Source: Lachnospiraceae bacterium (lineage in GTDB: Bacteria; Bacillota; Clostridia; Lachnospirales; Lachnospiraceae). Taken from it: a stretch of 64,000 nt of DNA. Below the pieces are notes generated by a model, which saw nothing but the letters and a program-made list of their open reading frames with translations, did no database searches and was not told the origin of the DNA. Where the stretch lies: positions 1-64,000 of the forward strand of contig CAJTBO010000008.1 of the NCBI GenBank assembly GCA_910573755.1, in the 5' to 3' direction. Numbering within the stretch: position 1 is the stretch's first letter; every line of letters begins with the position of its first letter. Below, one piece after another: positions 3,268 to 58,617 of this stretch. Position numbers and translations under genes: made by a program.

Positions 3268-3819
3268 ATGAAAAAAATCGGTGTGAAGGATATCGATCTT
3301 CTTCCTTTCTGGATCAATTACGTCGGCTGCTGTTATCCGAACGGTTATGACGAGGAGAGGGATATTTCCGTTTCGGAACTTATGCAGGAGTTGTATACGG
3401 AAGAGATCGGAGAATGGTGGGAGAAATTTACCGGATATTATGAAGGAGTCCTTGAGGAAAGCGATGGGTATCTGGACGAGCCTGTTACGCTGGAAGAGGC
3501 GGCAGCAGAAGGGAAAATTTTGAACATAGAATTTCATCCGGGAGATATCCTGTATTTTATGAACGGAAAGCAGATTGGGAGTGCAGGGCCGCATTGGGAA
3601 CTGCAGACAATACCTTATAAAGAGGTAGAGCAGTTGCTGGCTTTCCCAAACGGGGGACAGCTATTTTTACTTCTGTTGCCGCTTGCCTGTATAGAGGAAA
3701 AAGAGGTGGAGGCAGTTATAGACGAAGTAAAAAAACAGATGGGAAATTATTTTCCGGAGAGTTTATGCGAGCGTGTTTCAAGATGTATTGCTGCGGGGTT
3801 GCTTCCGGATGAAGATTGA
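3268..3819 (+). CDS. hypothetical acidic protein, possible Imm19-like immunity protein
   Basis: A 183-aa acidic soluble protein begins at an ATG behind GGGAGAAG. It shows the pattern of small immunity proteins: an N-terminal helix-rich part with WWEKF, then GDILYFMNGKQIGSAGPHWELQT and a hydrophobic stretch (LFLLLLPLACI). It sits 41 bp behind the LRR gene in the same orientation, consistent with one immunity-gene row. The Imm19 suggestion comes from overall look only. No catalytic motif is visible. Confidence 0.55.
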   Translation: MKKIGVKDIDLLPFWINYVGCCYPNGYDEERDISVSELMQELYTEEIGEWWEKFTGYYEGVLEESDGYLDEPVTLEEAAAEGKILNIEFHPGDILYFMNGKQIGSAGPHWELQTIPYKEVEQLLAFPNGGQLFLLLLPLACIEEKEVEAVIDEVKKQMGNYFPESLCERVSRCIAAGLLPDED

Positions 3820-38304: not shown

Positions 38305-38505
38305 GTGACGAAGGAACAGGCGGAGCGGATTAAAGAGCTTCGGATGCAGGGGAAGGGCTATAAGGCCGTGGCCTCTGTCGTGGGGCTGTCCCGTGACATT
38401 GTGCGGAATTACTGCAGGGCGAACGGGATGGAAGGCTATGGTGAAGCGGTGAAGCTGAACCTGCAGAGAAAAATGGCGGAAGATACCGCCATGCCGGGTG
38501 CATGA
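38305..38505 (+). CDS. small HTH protein
   Basis: GTG 38305 behind GGTGAAGG gives 66 aa. It is almost entirely a recombinase-type helix-turn-helix: KEQAERIKELRMQGKGYKAV then ASVVGLSRDIVRNYCRANG. Such single-HTH proteins are common in clostridial phages just before DNA modification or terminase genes and probably bind DNA. It overlaps the PP-loop gene by 8 bp. Confidence 0.75.
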   Translation: MTKEQAERIKELRMQGKGYKAVASVVGLSRDIVRNYCRANGMEGYGEAVKLNLQRKMAEDTAMPGA

Positions 38506-39304
38506 GGACGGCGGAAAGGAAAAGCTGTATGCGGCTTCGCTGTCCGGCGGGAAGGATTCCACGGCCATGGTCCTGCGGCTGGTGGAGGAAGGCTGTCCTT
38601 TGGATTTTGTGATGTTCTGTGACACGGGGCTGGAATTTCCCCGGATGTATGAGCATGTGGAGAAGCTGGAGAAGGCGCTGCCGGTTCCGGTGGTGCATTT
38701 GAAAGAAGAAAAAGGATTTGAGTATTACCTGCTCCGTTATACGCCGGAGCGGAAGGACCCGGATTCCCCCTATGCGGGCAGGCCGGGCATGAGCTGGGCG
38801 GGGCCTAAGAACCGCTGGTGTACTTCGGTGTTGAAGACGGCGGTGATCAACAGGTATCTGTCCGGGCTTAGGAAGAATTATGAGATTGTGCAGTATATCG
38901 GCATAGCGGCAGATGAGCCGCAGAGGGTGAGGGAGTACCGGTATCCCCTGGTGGAATGGGGGATGACGGAGAAGGACTGCCTGGATTACTGCTATGAGCG
39001 GGGGTATGACTGGGGCGGGCTGTACCGGCTGTTTGACCGGGTGTCTTGCTGGTGCTGCCCCCTGCAGGGGCTGGAGGAACTGCGGACGCTGCGCCGGGAG
39101 TTTCCGGAGCTGTGGGAGCGGCTTCTGGAATGGGAAGCGCAGACATGGCGGAATTTCCGGAAGGATTTTTCCGTACAGGAGCTGGAAATCAGGTTTCGGT
39201 TTGAGGAAGAGCGGATACGGGAGGGAAAGCGTATCCGGGGGAAGGAATTTTTTAAGGAGCTGTATGGGAGGTTAGGCAGGGATGGAGACAGGGCAGAAAT
39301 ATAA
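38498..39304 (+). CDS. PP-loop PAPS-reductase/sulfotransferase-like protein
   Basis: The 268-aa protein starts at GTG 38498, within the end of the HTH gene. It has the PP-loop AASLSGGKDSTAMVLRLVEE, the DFVMFCDTGLEFPRMYEHVE follow-up and a cysteine group (NRWCTSVLK; RVSCWCCPLQG) that could hold an Fe-S or zinc site. It activates a substrate with ATP, as PAPS reductase and DndC do. In phages this family is a frequent neighbour of DNA methyltransferases, but its product is unknown. No dnd genes are nearby. Confidence 0.85.
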   Translation: MHEDGGKEKLYAASLSGGKDSTAMVLRLVEEGCPLDFVMFCDTGLEFPRMYEHVEKLEKALPVPVVHLKEEKGFEYYLLRYTPERKDPDSPYAGRPGMSWAGPKNRWCTSVLKTAVINRYLSGLRKNYEIVQYIGIAADEPQRVREYRYPLVEWGMTEKDCLDYCYERGYDWGGLYRLFDRVSCWCCPLQGLEELRTLRREFPELWERLLEWEAQTWRNFRKDFSVQELEIRFRFEEERIREGKRIRGKEFFKELYGRLGRDGDRAEI

Positions 39305-39866
39305 TATCGTCTATGCCGATCCTCCGTGGCGGTATGACAACAAACGGGTGCAGGGCGGAGCGGAGAAGCATTACGAGACGATGGGCACGGAGGATATCTG
39401 TGCGCTGCCTGTGGAGGATATCTGCGCGGAAGACTGTACTTTGTTCTTATGGGTTACGTTCCCGCAGTTGCCGGAGGCCCTGCGTGTGATGGAGAGCTGG
39501 GGGTTCCGGTATAAGACGGTGGCTTTCGTGTGGCTGAAACAGAACCGGAAGTCTCCGGGCTGGTTTTACGGTCTGGGGTTCTGGACCAGGGGGAACGCGG
39601 AGATCTGCCTGCTTGGTGTGAAGGGGCATCCGCGGCGCAGGTCTGCCCGTGTCCATCAGTTTATTATCTCTCCGCTGGAAGCCCACAGCAAGAAGCCGGA
39701 CGAGACACGGGAGAAGATTGTGGAACTGATGGGGGATCTTCCGAGGGTGGAGCTGTTCGCAAGGCAGCGTGTCCCCGGCTGGGAAGCGTGGGGGAACGAG
39801 GTGGAGAGCAGCGTTGTCCTGGAGCCGGAAGGAGACGGAAGAAAGAGAAACGGGGAGGCGGAGTGA
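39282..39866 (+). CDS. MT-A70 family adenine-N6 DNA methyltransferase
   Basis: The 194-aa protein opens with KYNIVYADPPWRYDNKRVQG, the DPPW catalytic motif of beta-class MT-A70 enzymes, followed by LFLWVTFPQLPEALRVMESW, WYFGLGFW-like (WFYGLGFWTRGNAEICL) and SKKPDETREKIVELMGDL with GWEAWGNE at the end. It transfers methyl from S-adenosylmethionine to adenine in a short DNA site, probably protecting phage DNA from restriction. It overlaps the PP-loop gene by 23 bp. Confidence 0.93.
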   Translation: METGQKYNIVYADPPWRYDNKRVQGGAEKHYETMGTEDICALPVEDICAEDCTLFLWVTFPQLPEALRVMESWGFRYKTVAFVWLKQNRKSPGWFYGLGFWTRGNAEICLLGVKGHPRRRSARVHQFIISPLEAHSKKPDETREKIVELMGDLPRVELFARQRVPGWEAWGNEVESSVVLEPEGDGRKRNGEAE

Positions 39867-39868
39867 CC

Positions 39869-42568
39869 ATGGGAAGGCTTACATTTCTGGATATCTGTTC
39901 GGGGATCGGCGGGTTCCGGCTGGGGCTGGAATGGGCCGGGCATAAGTGTATCGGGTATTGTGAGTATGATAAATTTGCAAGGGCTTCCTATGAGGCCATG
40001 TATGATACGGAGGGAGAATGGAAGGCGGAGGATGTGACGAAGCTGACGCCGGAAGAGATTCCTTATGCGGATGCGTGGTGCTTCGGGTTCCCCTGCTTTG
40101 AGGCCGGGACGCTGGTGATGACGGACCGGGGGTATAAATGTATTGAGGATATTCGGGAGGGAGACAGGGTGCTGACGCATAAGGGCCGGTTCCGCCCGGT
40201 GGTGAGGCCCATGAAGCATAAGGCCGGGGAGATTTATGAGCTGGACGTTTTCGGCGTGGAGAATCTAAGAGTGACCGGGGAGCATCCGTTTCTGGTAAAA
40301 GACGGGGATTCTGCCAAATGGAAAGCGGTACAGGAACTGGAGGCAGGTGATCTGATTGCGGTTCCGGTGAATCGGAAAGCGGAGCTGCCGGAGTGGGACG
40401 GCATTACTTATGAACGGCGCGGGAAGGAGTGCAGGCTGGACGGCCTTGACCTTGGGAGCCGGGATTTCTGGTGGTTCGTGGGTTGTTATATGGGTGACGG
40501 CTGGTATCGTGTCACCAAGAGGAAGAATGCGTCTGATAATTACCGTGTGGTGGTTGCCTGTAATGGGGAAAAGCTGGAACGGCTGAAAAGGCATGTGGAC
40601 GGAATGTTCCGTTACAGCGTGGCGAAGGAACGGACGGTTTATAAGGCGCATTTTACGAATAAAGAGCTGACGGTATTTTTGATGCGGTTTGGGAAAGGCG
40701 CGGGAGGAAAGCGGCTGACGGAGACGGTCTTCAATCTGCCGGAGGATCTGCTGCGGGCGTTTCTGGAAGGGTATTTTGAGACGGACGGGTGTATGGTCGG
40801 TAAGTACCGGCAGGCATCCACGATTTCCAGGGAGCTTGCTTATGGAATACGGGACTGTGTGCATAAGGCGTACCGTATGCCCTGTGCGGTTTACAGAAAT
40901 GAGATGCCGGAGACCTGCGTGATCGAGGGCAGGACGGTACGGCAGCATGATTTTTATACGGTGAGGTTTAAGGAAGGGCGGTCTGACAGGGACGGCTCTT
41001 TTTTTATGGACGGGTATGTCTGGTGCCGTTTCAGGGGCAGCAGGAAGGTCCCGTTTGACGGATATGTCTACAACATGGAGGTGGAAGATGACAATTCATA
41101 CACAGCAGGAGGGCTGGCAGCCCACAACTGCCAGGATATCTCCATCGCAGGGAAGCAGCGGGGGCTTAGAGGGAAGCGAAGTGGGATCTATTACAGCATT
41201 ATTGACCTCATCAAAGGCAAAGAGGAAGGTGATAAGCCCACATACCTACTTGTTGAGAACGTTAAGAACCTGTTATCAGTCAATGCAGGATTCGATTTTG
41301 CCGCCGTTCTCTCTGAAATGGACGAGGCAGGGTATGACGTGCGGTGGCAGGTGCTTAATTCTAAAGACTTCGGAGTCCCGCAGAACCGGGAGAGGGTATT
41401 CCTTATCGCAGTTCTTAGAAGCAGGGGTGGACGGGAAGTATTACCTGTCACCGGAGAAGACGGCGGAGCTCTTAAAGAGGTTATAGGCGGGATGCAGGGA
41501 TACCGGGTGTATGACCCGTCCGGGGTTTCGGTGAGTATCGGGGCGAATGGCGGAGGCATGGGATCGAAGACCGGGCTGTACTGCGTGGGAGATGCAGAGC
41601 CGGGCGGCCGGATATTTGTTGACCAGACGCTGAACCATCCGAAGGTCACAGAGGTTGCCCGGTGCCTGGTGGCACAGTATAATGGCGGGCTGACAAATTA
41701 TGGCAATTCCGGGGTATTGGAGACTGATTCTGCTGTGCAGGAAGCCAGGGCGGTGCTGACGCCGGACCGGGTGGAGAAGCGGCAGAACGGCAGGCGGATG
41801 AAGGAGGCGGGGGAGCCGATGTTTACGCTGACGGCACAGGACCAGCACGGGGTTTATCTGACGGAAGAGGTGTCCGGGGATGTGGAGACGGCGCTGCCGG
41901 TGAGGAACGGCACGAAGCAGGGGTATGACCTGGCTTATCCGGGGGACGGCGTGTGCCTGTCATACCCGAAGAGTGAATCCCGGCGGGGCCGGGTTGGAAA
42001 GGGCTGTTCGCAGACGCTGGATACGGGGTGCATGATGGGGACGGTGACGAAGTGCGGGAAGATTCGGAGGCTGACGCCTCGTGAGTGTTTCCGCCTGCAG
42101 GGGTTCCCGGATGAGCTGTATGAGCGGGCGGCGGCTGTCAATTCGGAGACACAGCTTTACAAGCAGGCCGGGAATGCGGTCACTGCGACGGTGGCTTATG
42201 CGGTGGCCATGGCGCTGCCGGAGAGCCGGGAGCTTCTGGCGCGGACAGAGGCTGTGTGGGAAGAGTTCGGGGATTCCGTGAGGGCGGATGGCTGGAAAGG
42301 CGCTGCCGGTTTTGTGCCGGGGACGGCGTGGGAGGACTTTGGCGATTCTGTCCGGGTTATATCGCGGGAAGATTTCAGCGGCTCTATACGGGATACAGCA
42401 TGGGAAGATTTTTCTGATTCCGTGGAGGAAATGGAAAGCGGAGAATTTAAGGGTTCTGTATCAGATACGGTATGGGATGGTTTTGAAGATATGAAGGATA
42501 TGGAAGCAGGGGATGTGTCCGGGGATTCCGGGGCGGAGCCTGACGGGGAGTTTGATTTTCTGAATTAG
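39869..42568 (+). CDS. C5-cytosine DNA methyltransferase precursor with intein
   Basis: The start at ATG 39869 (GGGGAGGCGG upstream) gives 899 aa; the much longer open frame upstream overlaps the MT-A70 gene and is not used. The N-extein (1-75) has motif I FLDICSGIGGFRLGLEWAG and ends FGFP. The C-extein begins CQDISIAGKQRGL, so splicing restores the motif IV GFPCQ with the catalytic cysteine. It continues with LLVENVKN (VI), VPQNRERVFLI (VIII) and LTPRECFRLQGFP with QAGNAV (IX-X). An acidic tail of repeated WEDFGDSVR-like units (42250-42500) closes the protein. Confidence 0.92.
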   Translation: MGRLTFLDICSGIGGFRLGLEWAGHKCIGYCEYDKFARASYEAMYDTEGEWKAEDVTKLTPEEIPYADAWCFGFPCFEAGTLVMTDRGYKCIEDIREGDRVLTHKGRFRPVVRPMKHKAGEIYELDVFGVENLRVTGEHPFLVKDGDSAKWKAVQELEAGDLIAVPVNRKAELPEWDGITYERRGKECRLDGLDLGSRDFWWFVGCYMGDGWYRVTKRKNASDNYRVVVACNGEKLERLKRHVDGMFRYSVAKERTVYKAHFTNKELTVFLMRFGKGAGGKRLTETVFNLPEDLLRAFLEGYFETDGCMVGKYRQASTISRELAYGIRDCVHKAYRMPCAVYRNEMPETCVIEGRTVRQHDFYTVRFKEGRSDRDGSFFMDGYVWCRFRGSRKVPFDGYVYNMEVEDDNSYTAGGLAAHNCQDISIAGKQRGLRGKRSGIYYSIIDLIKGKEEGDKPTYLLVENVKNLLSVNAGFDFAAVLSEMDEAGYDVRWQVLNSKDFGVPQNRERVFLIAVLRSRGGREVLPVTGEDGGALKEVIGGMQGYRVYDPSGVSVSIGANGGGMGSKTGLYCVGDAEPGGRIFVDQTLNHPKVTEVARCLVAQYNGGLTNYGNSGVLETDSAVQEARAVLTPDRVEKRQNGRRMKEAGEPMFTLTAQDQHGVYLTEEVSGDVETALPVRNGTKQGYDLAYPGDGVCLSYPKSESRRGRVGKGCSQTLDTGCMMGTVTKCGKIRRLTPRECFRLQGFPDELYERAAAVNSETQLYKQAGNAVTATVAYAVAMALPESRELLARTEAVWEEFGDSVRADGWKGAAGFVPGTAWEDFGDSVRVISREDFSGSIRDTAWEDFSDSVEEMESGEFKGSVSDTVWDGFEDMKDMEAGDVSGDSGAEPDGEFDFLN
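40094..41128 (+). mobile_element. 345-aa LAGLIDADG intein in the methyltransferase
   Basis: In frame, 1035 bp long. Block A is CFEAGTLVMTDRGYKCIEDI followed by REGDRVLTH. Block B is VTGEHPFLV (TxxH). The homing endonuclease has two LAGLIDADG-type helices, FVGCYMGDGW and FLEGYFETDG. The C-terminal blocks are GYVYNMEVEDDNSYTAGGLA and then the splice end HN followed by Cys. Nucleophiles are Cys1, Asn at the end and Cys+1, as expected for standard splicing. All key residues are present, so it should splice and may still home. Confidence 0.92.
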
Positions 42569-58477: not shown

Positions 58478-58617
58478 AACAGCAAAGATAAAAACGCAAC
58501 GTGCATCTTTTGGATGTGCCAGAGCCGGTAGGTAGCCCGGCCGTCCTGATGGTATCAGGGTAAGTAACCTGCCCTCCTGGGTTGTCCGTTCTTTGTTCAT
58601 AACACATTTAAGGAGGG
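58478..58617 (+). ncRNA. yjdF riboswitch
   Basis: The leader before yjdF has the look of the yjdF motif RNA: a purine-rich start (AAACAGCAAAGATAAAAACG), a small CATC/GATG stem (58504-58515), the perfect hairpin CCTGAT-GGT-ATCAGG (58545-58559) and a conserved end. CCCTCCT (58572-58578) is exactly complementary to the ribosome site AGGAGGG (58611-58617), so translation can be switched by pairing. The class binds azaaromatic compounds and controls yjdF genes in Bacilli and Clostridia. The 5' boundary is approximate. Confidence 0.75.

Follow-up and report, generated by a model that had tools for sequence, protein, structure and literature searches.

PI-PkoII, TliVMA and PI-SceI are inteins in which a LAGLIDADG endonuclease is inserted into a HINT splicing domain. 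In phages, inteins have been reported at conserved sites of methylases, including the mycobacteriophage DNMT-1 and DNMT-2 inteins (PMC5050341) and an actinophage methylase intein (PMC9957025), as far as the accessible text of these papers goes. The same part of PMC5050341 places mycobacteriophage inteins in active centres beside conserved motifs, and its Table 1 lists the methylase hosts as N4/N6 type. The words cytosine, catalytic and cysteine are absent from the main text of PMC9957025, and PMC11855218, in its accessible portion, concerns another insert of the same actinophage methylase. Terminase, ribonucleotide reductase and helicase are the hosts named in the accessible text of other phage-intein papers. 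In the openly accessible literature we found no paper on inteins at the catalytic cysteine of C5-cytosine methyltransferases (MTases), although an earlier mention elsewhere is possible; where intein and cytosine methyltransferase appeared together in the accessible parts of open papers (PMC8616854 among them), we found only unrelated co-mentions. Here we document the catalytic Cys of C5 DNA MTases as a recurrent intein site, at which an ordinary intein occupies a widespread insertion point that is apparently undescribed in the open literature searched.

The intein that we analysed lies in a window of 64,000 nucleotides from a Lachnospiraceae bacterium (contig CAJTBO010000008.1), within a prophage. 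It shares with PI-PkoII, TliVMA and PI-SceI the HINT domain with an inserted LAGLIDADG endonuclease (Foldseek E 1.8e-18 to 1.7e-14 at 11–17% identity; by sequence, PI-PkoII also ranked first in the PDB, E 3.8e-10), but differs from them in host protein and site. Like the mycobacteriophage and actinophage inteins, it interrupts a phage methylase at a conserved site; its host is a C5 MTase by profile and so falls outside the N4/N6 host type of the DNMT-1/2 family. The DocMcStuffins methylase intein (L079) is 29% identical to that of the window, and its extein gave no match to the C5 profile. The inteins of the Aeromonas phage PS1 thymidylate synthase (insertion LTP/CH) and of Lactococcus phage NrdD (RV/CGY), 29–34% identical to ours, also stand directly before a Cys and were the top two viral structure matches of the window intein model, while their host enzymes differ from the C5 MTase. 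We take both cysteines to be active-site residues, with RV/CGY adjoining the glycyl radical. The long-branched PS1 intein groups with two C5-MTase inteins (SH-aLRT 99), and the two host types have a P-C-[Q/H] site in common. Further related inteins (L093, L245, L252, L234, L235, L237–L240 and L225–L227) are inserted immediately ahead of cysteines with an apparent catalytic or cluster-binding role, in hosts that, judging by motif, are presumably thymidylate synthase, IMP dehydrogenase, ribonucleotide reductase and a radical-SAM protein.

The precursor gene occupies 39869..42568 on the forward strand and is open across 899 codons, from the ATG at 39869 to the stop at 42568. Residues 1–75 and 421–899 form a C5-cytosine MTase (PF00145 DNA_methylase, E 2.6e-59, above the Pfam cut-off; NCBIfam TIGR00675 dcm, E 8.5e-62; both on the precursor), and residues 76–420 form the intein. 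Predicted splicing would yield a protein of 554 aa and 60.4 kDa, in place of the roughly 62 kDa that had been expected from a first inspection. The 75-aa N-extein (39869..40093, forward strand) ends in GFP and contains LDICSGIGGF (39887–39916), which we take to be motif I of C5 MTases; the motif numbers I, IV, VI, VIII and IX/X are used here on the same assumption. Aligned with M.HhaI, the 479-aa C-extein (41129..42565, forward strand) carries ENV (41255–41263), QNRERV (41381–41398) and RRLTPREC, so that the family profile is accompanied by motifs I, IV (PCQ), VI (ENV), VIII and IX/X. Its first residue (41129..41131) aligns with residue 81 of M.HhaI, presumably the catalytic nucleophile of that enzyme, and this motif IV Cys comes to lie directly after Pro only when the intein has been removed. 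The claim of the sequence-only reading that the insertion falls exactly before the catalytic Cys of a phage C5 MTase thus stands. The protein closes with an acidic tail of about 110 aa with WEDFGDSV-like repeats (42236..42565, forward strand), which was matched up to residue 899 in 8 of 69 related viral loci (L001, L004, L005, L007–L010 and L012).

Upstream of the MTase (38498–39863) lie a PAPS-reductase-like gene and an MT-A70 adenine MTase gene, and genes for the small and large terminase subunits come after it. No restriction gene was seen among the scanned neighbours. An azaaromatic (yjdF) riboswitch (58478–58605, 70.1 bits) is located among the prophage genes. Searched with the precursor, the source genome gave no further match at E ≤ 0.001.

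The intein itself spans 40094..41128 on the forward strand, 345 codons in frame, and reads WCFGFP/C(1)FEAGTLV at its start, T61GEH64 in block B and GLAAH344N345/C(+1)QDISIAGK at its end. These boundaries and residues, like the two LAGLIDADG helices, are exactly those first read from the sequence. The class-1 residue set is complete, comprising Cys1 (40094..40096), the block B TxxH (40274..40285), the C-terminal His-Asn (41123..41128) and Cys+1. Among 119 distinct inteins at the same site of C5 MTases (C5-site inteins), Cys1, H64 and N345 are invariant, T61 is Thr in 107 and Ser in 12, and H344 is His in 117. Both endonuclease motifs, VGCYMGDG in helix 1 (40472..40501) and LEGYFETDG in helix 2 (40760..40789), all on the forward strand, retain their acidic residues: D135, which is Asp in 114 and Glu in 1 of the 119, and D231, Asp in 113 and Glu in 1. 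Both acidic residues are kept in 112 of the 119, and 7 are without one.

The proposed comparison with Pfam Hint and LAGLIDADG models bore out the assignment, with Intein_splicing (E 2.4e-11), Hint_2 (E 5.9e-9) and LAGLIDADG_3 (E 4.1e-5) all above their cut-offs on the precursor. NCBIfam intein_Cterm also exceeded its cut-off on the precursor, and intein_Nterm fell slightly under its cut-off of 24.5 (21.3 bits on the precursor, 23.3 bits on the intein). AlphaFold modelled the intein from 42 aligned rows with a mean pLDDT of 95.4 and a pTM of 0.92; the precursor model, built on a 4-row alignment only, had a pLDDT of 35. Using Foldseek, we found that the top solved matches of the intein model were the TliVMA, PI-PkoII, PhoVMA, PI-SceI and PI-PfuI inteins, followed by I-DmoI entries that matched the endonuclease part. 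Profile and fold comparison confirm the 345-aa segment as an intein with a predicted HINT fold and a LAGLIDADG endonuclease, for which splicing and cleavage may be inferred. Chance is excluded by the profile E-values and by the 58 related viral loci, out of 69, that are empty exactly at the junction.

We consider it highly probable that a mobile, selfish class-1 intein with an intact LAGLIDADG homing endonuclease invaded the prophage C5 MTase between the Pro and Cys of motif IV. By analogy with its family, the HINT domain would excise itself after translation by the standard class-1 pathway: an N–S shift at Cys1 would produce a thioester that is passed to Cys+1, and cyclization of Asn345 followed by an S–N shift would leave a native GFP–CQ bond. 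The thiol attacking in trans-thioesterification would then be released as the nucleophile of the MTase. Because the nucleophile required at +1 also serves the enzyme, selection on the MTase would protect the splicing chemistry, and loss of this residue would mean loss of the enzyme. Since the intein stands exactly before the catalytic Cys, the unspliced precursor is almost certainly incapable of methylation. The excised intein would cleave empty alleles across the junction and be copied in by repair, at a site that would suit a parasite in that its DNA is highly constrained and imprecise loss would kill methylation.

Intein-free homologues, the comparison proposed at the outset, were compared at 69 related viral loci on 68 contigs (one contig carries both L041 and L065), each encoding a relative of the precursor; L002 and L003 were excluded as copies of L004 and L005. 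At 58 loci the N- and C-exteins were joined directly with a zero-base gap, and at 4 they were separated by exactly 1035 bases. Two loci were irregular, with gaps of 4 and 124 bases, and 5 were without the N-extein and hence unreadable at the junction. One of these 5 (L007) begins within a window-type intein, so at least 5 of the 69 carry it. The intein is therefore an in-frame insertion that cost the host no residue. Within 15 bases on either side of the insertion site, the differences among 28 close empty alleles fell mainly on third codon positions. The intein was found at E ≤ 1e-15 in 4 of 397 genomes of the window's family, the source genome included. A search of 61 relatives with the precursor at E ≤ 1e-40 gave 3 matches and no intact empty copy, which is why the empty alleles were taken from viral contigs.

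The alleles also differ in their flanks. L008 has no intein, and the first 360 aa of its C-extein are identical to those of the window; at the DNA level its C-extein is 97.8% like that of the window, and its N-extein only 83.5%. Compared with the intein-bearing L004, the window is 99.1% identical in the N-extein, 93.8% in the intein and 92.9% in the C-extein, and compared with its intein-bearing near-twin L001 the corresponding values are 94.7%, 98.1% and 99.6%. On the alignments, these mosaic flanks could reflect copying of flanking DNA (gene conversion) at homing, and ordinary phage recombination could also have produced them. Since L001 differs most in the N-extein, this stretch recombines anyway, and the mosaic is no proof of homing. 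Intein dN/dS was 0.16 against L004 and 0.13 against L005, with values of 0.10–0.18 for the HINT and endonuclease parts taken separately in these comparisons. Against the near-identical L001 it was 0.35, with few changes, and against L006 saturated dS gave no value. Both domains are under purifying selection in the window lineage.

We next considered how widely the site is occupied. Using tBLASTn with the intein alone (E 1e-5), we obtained matches in 142 of 50,697 phage records and 134 of 72,556 plasmid records, some over the HINT part only. From the matches listed, 16 records were fetched, chosen partly by methylase labels; 13 had C5-MTase hosts, all 13 with the intein before the motif IV Cys. 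These hosts belong to phages of Lactobacillus, Pseudomonas, Erwinia (three) and Mannheimia, P1-like coliphages (two) and others, and to plasmids of Rhizobium and Euzebya. The other 3 hosts were the PS1 thymidylate synthase, NrdD (P1048) and a non-C5 mycobacteriophage methylase. Pattern-led scans of viral contigs and genomes then enlarged the set, with the best 80 of 185 relatives retained from one of them. An intein profile matched 189 of 255 loci, and with the window included 178 complete-intein rows were kept after 12 partial or stop-containing ones were dropped. Of these rows, 148 had C5-MTase exteins and 30 had non-C5 exteins, and the insertion preceded the same Cys in 148 of 148 C5 rows, a figure that overstates the exclusiveness of the site because the scan patterns contained a VHNC[QK]-type junction (one wholly, one as one of three patterns); the 13 of 13 from the intein-only searches is the less biased count. 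Repeat fetches, the window's own locus twice among them, reduce the 148 rows to at least 119 distinct inteins. Pro immediately precedes the insertion in 131 of the 148 rows, and the C-extein begins with CQ in 127. A C5 MTase had been thought a rarely reported intein host; at least 119 distinct inteins at one site argue otherwise, and the scarcity is one of the searchable literature, not of sequences. No intein was named in any of the opened annotated records that carry one at this site, so such genes may be annotated with the wrong size and domains.

Near-identical filled and empty alleles also occur in the dmt genes of P1-like phages. The intein is present in OP279344 (labelled P1), RCS47 and Ro157c2YLVW, and absent from reference P1 (NC_005856) and P7, the P7 dam gene being 2019 bp against 3042 bp, exactly 1023 bp shorter. 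Inteins of the P1-like dmt genes (OP279344, RCS47 and others) are about 30% identical to that of the window and share its junction (GTP/C...HN/CQ) and a C5 host domain; unlike the window gene, the reference P1 dmt is annotated as a bifunctional N6-adenine and perhaps C5 MTase. Among 5426 E. coli genomes, 493 had a dmt match and 152 had the intein, at least 99% identical in all 152. Three empty dmt alleles compared base by base were all exactly empty at the junction; by BLAST, their identity to the filled allele was 95.7, 91.5 and 97.0% on the N-extein flank, and just past the junction it was 97.1, 97.0 and 99.2%. No intein was named in dmt in the intein-bearing P1-like records that were opened. 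Such near-identical intein-plus and intein-minus alleles make it directly testable whether the intein imposes a cost, delays DNA modification or merely rides on it.

Intein and extein histories were compared using identities for 111 of the 119 distinct C5-site inteins and trees for 89. The identities correlate (Mantel r 0.78, Spearman 0.33), and the Mantel value implies that much of the inheritance may be vertical. Exceptions occur both ways: L204 and L117 have inteins 53% and exteins 19% identical, and L140 and L159 have exteins 69% and inteins 32% identical. Forcing an eight-member intein clade around L126, which includes long branches, together on the extein tree was rejected (AU p 9.7e-6), as was forcing the window, L096, L120, L075 and L194, the five intein rows of one extein clade (the window's MTase subfamily), together on the intein tree (AU p 2.8e-5); the tested clades were selected after viewing the trees, and some rows, above all L204, are long-branched. 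This conflict between trees makes repeated invasion of the one codon junction very probable, with a single shared invasion rejected even within the window's MTase subfamily.

The presence and absence of the intein among MTases with identical 360-aa C-exteins (L008), and among near-identical dmt alleles, is more readily explained by a selfish element than by a conserved switch, and the suggestion of the sequence-only reading that splicing acts as a timing switch found no support. Under that suggestion, conditional splicing would time or gate phage cytosine methylation, for instance in response to redox state, as both Cys1 and Cys+1 provide a thiol; the precursor would be without a usable catalytic Cys, and the accessible text of PMC5050341 argues that phage inteins can tune splicing. 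The splicing residues are intact both where endonuclease acidic residues have been lost (L088–L091, from three Erwinia phages and one Pseudomonas phage) and in a 171-aa mini-intein (L236), but their retention is expected whenever the MTase is useful, and such a range of forms is what the homing cycle is expected to produce. In the window intein the canonical His-Asn end is preserved. Moreover, the intein is absent from most related MTases (58 of 69 loci) and from most dmt-bearing E. coli genomes (152 with the intein against 493 with a dmt match), which means that it is not required for a conserved function. A switch is possible in principle, yet nothing favours it and we regard it as improbable; it would be compatible with selfishness, as one intein can be both mobile and regulatory. 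We give similarly little credence to the further idea that the use of one thiol for splicing and then for methylation provides a conditional (for example, redox-gated) activation that delays phage methylation to a given stage and so pays for repeated arrival. If true, conditional activation would underlie the repeated arrival of inteins at this site across several bacterial phyla, both in genomes and in phages, P1-like ones among them.

Decay is a still less likely account of the window copy. Splicing or homing would have been lost and the MTase would be inactive in the prophage, as might be imagined from the 7 of 119 C5-site inteins without an acidic endonuclease residue, from the exteins disrupted after the intein in L077, L165 and L166, and from one C5-site intein interrupted by an element of about 8.2 kb. 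However, the window copy has all splicing residues, both acidic residues and an open 899-codon frame, and we rejected a dead element on the intactness of its splicing and endonuclease residues and the purifying selection on both domains. That the 345-aa segment is a normal MTase domain is next to inconceivable: the open frame is all that speaks for it, and the exact absence of the segment from 58 of 69 related loci, the Pfam intein models and the intein fold refute it. A mobile, selfish intein is the reading that we retain.

Individual loci showed further features. In an Oscillospiraceae contig (JAJQHD010000055.1, about 77143–85392; L219 and L241), the C5-MTase intein is split in its endonuclease region by the element of about 8.2 kb, whose open reading frames resemble, on sequence reading, a large serine recombinase and a relaxase; it is one mobile element within another. 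Schaedlerella arabinosiphila carries two window-type intein copies on one contig (L180 and L185). The disrupted C-exteins mentioned above lose their frame shortly past the intein, in Mannheimia phage 587AP2 (L077) and in two viral contigs (L165 and L166), and the disrupted C-extein of 587AP2 is followed by a gene annotated as an HNH homing endonuclease. Finally, a gut phage (MT835926; L074) has in-frame TGA codons at 3319, 3352 and 4921, where Trp seems to be expected; they fall in the intein and the C-extein, as if TGA were read as Trp.
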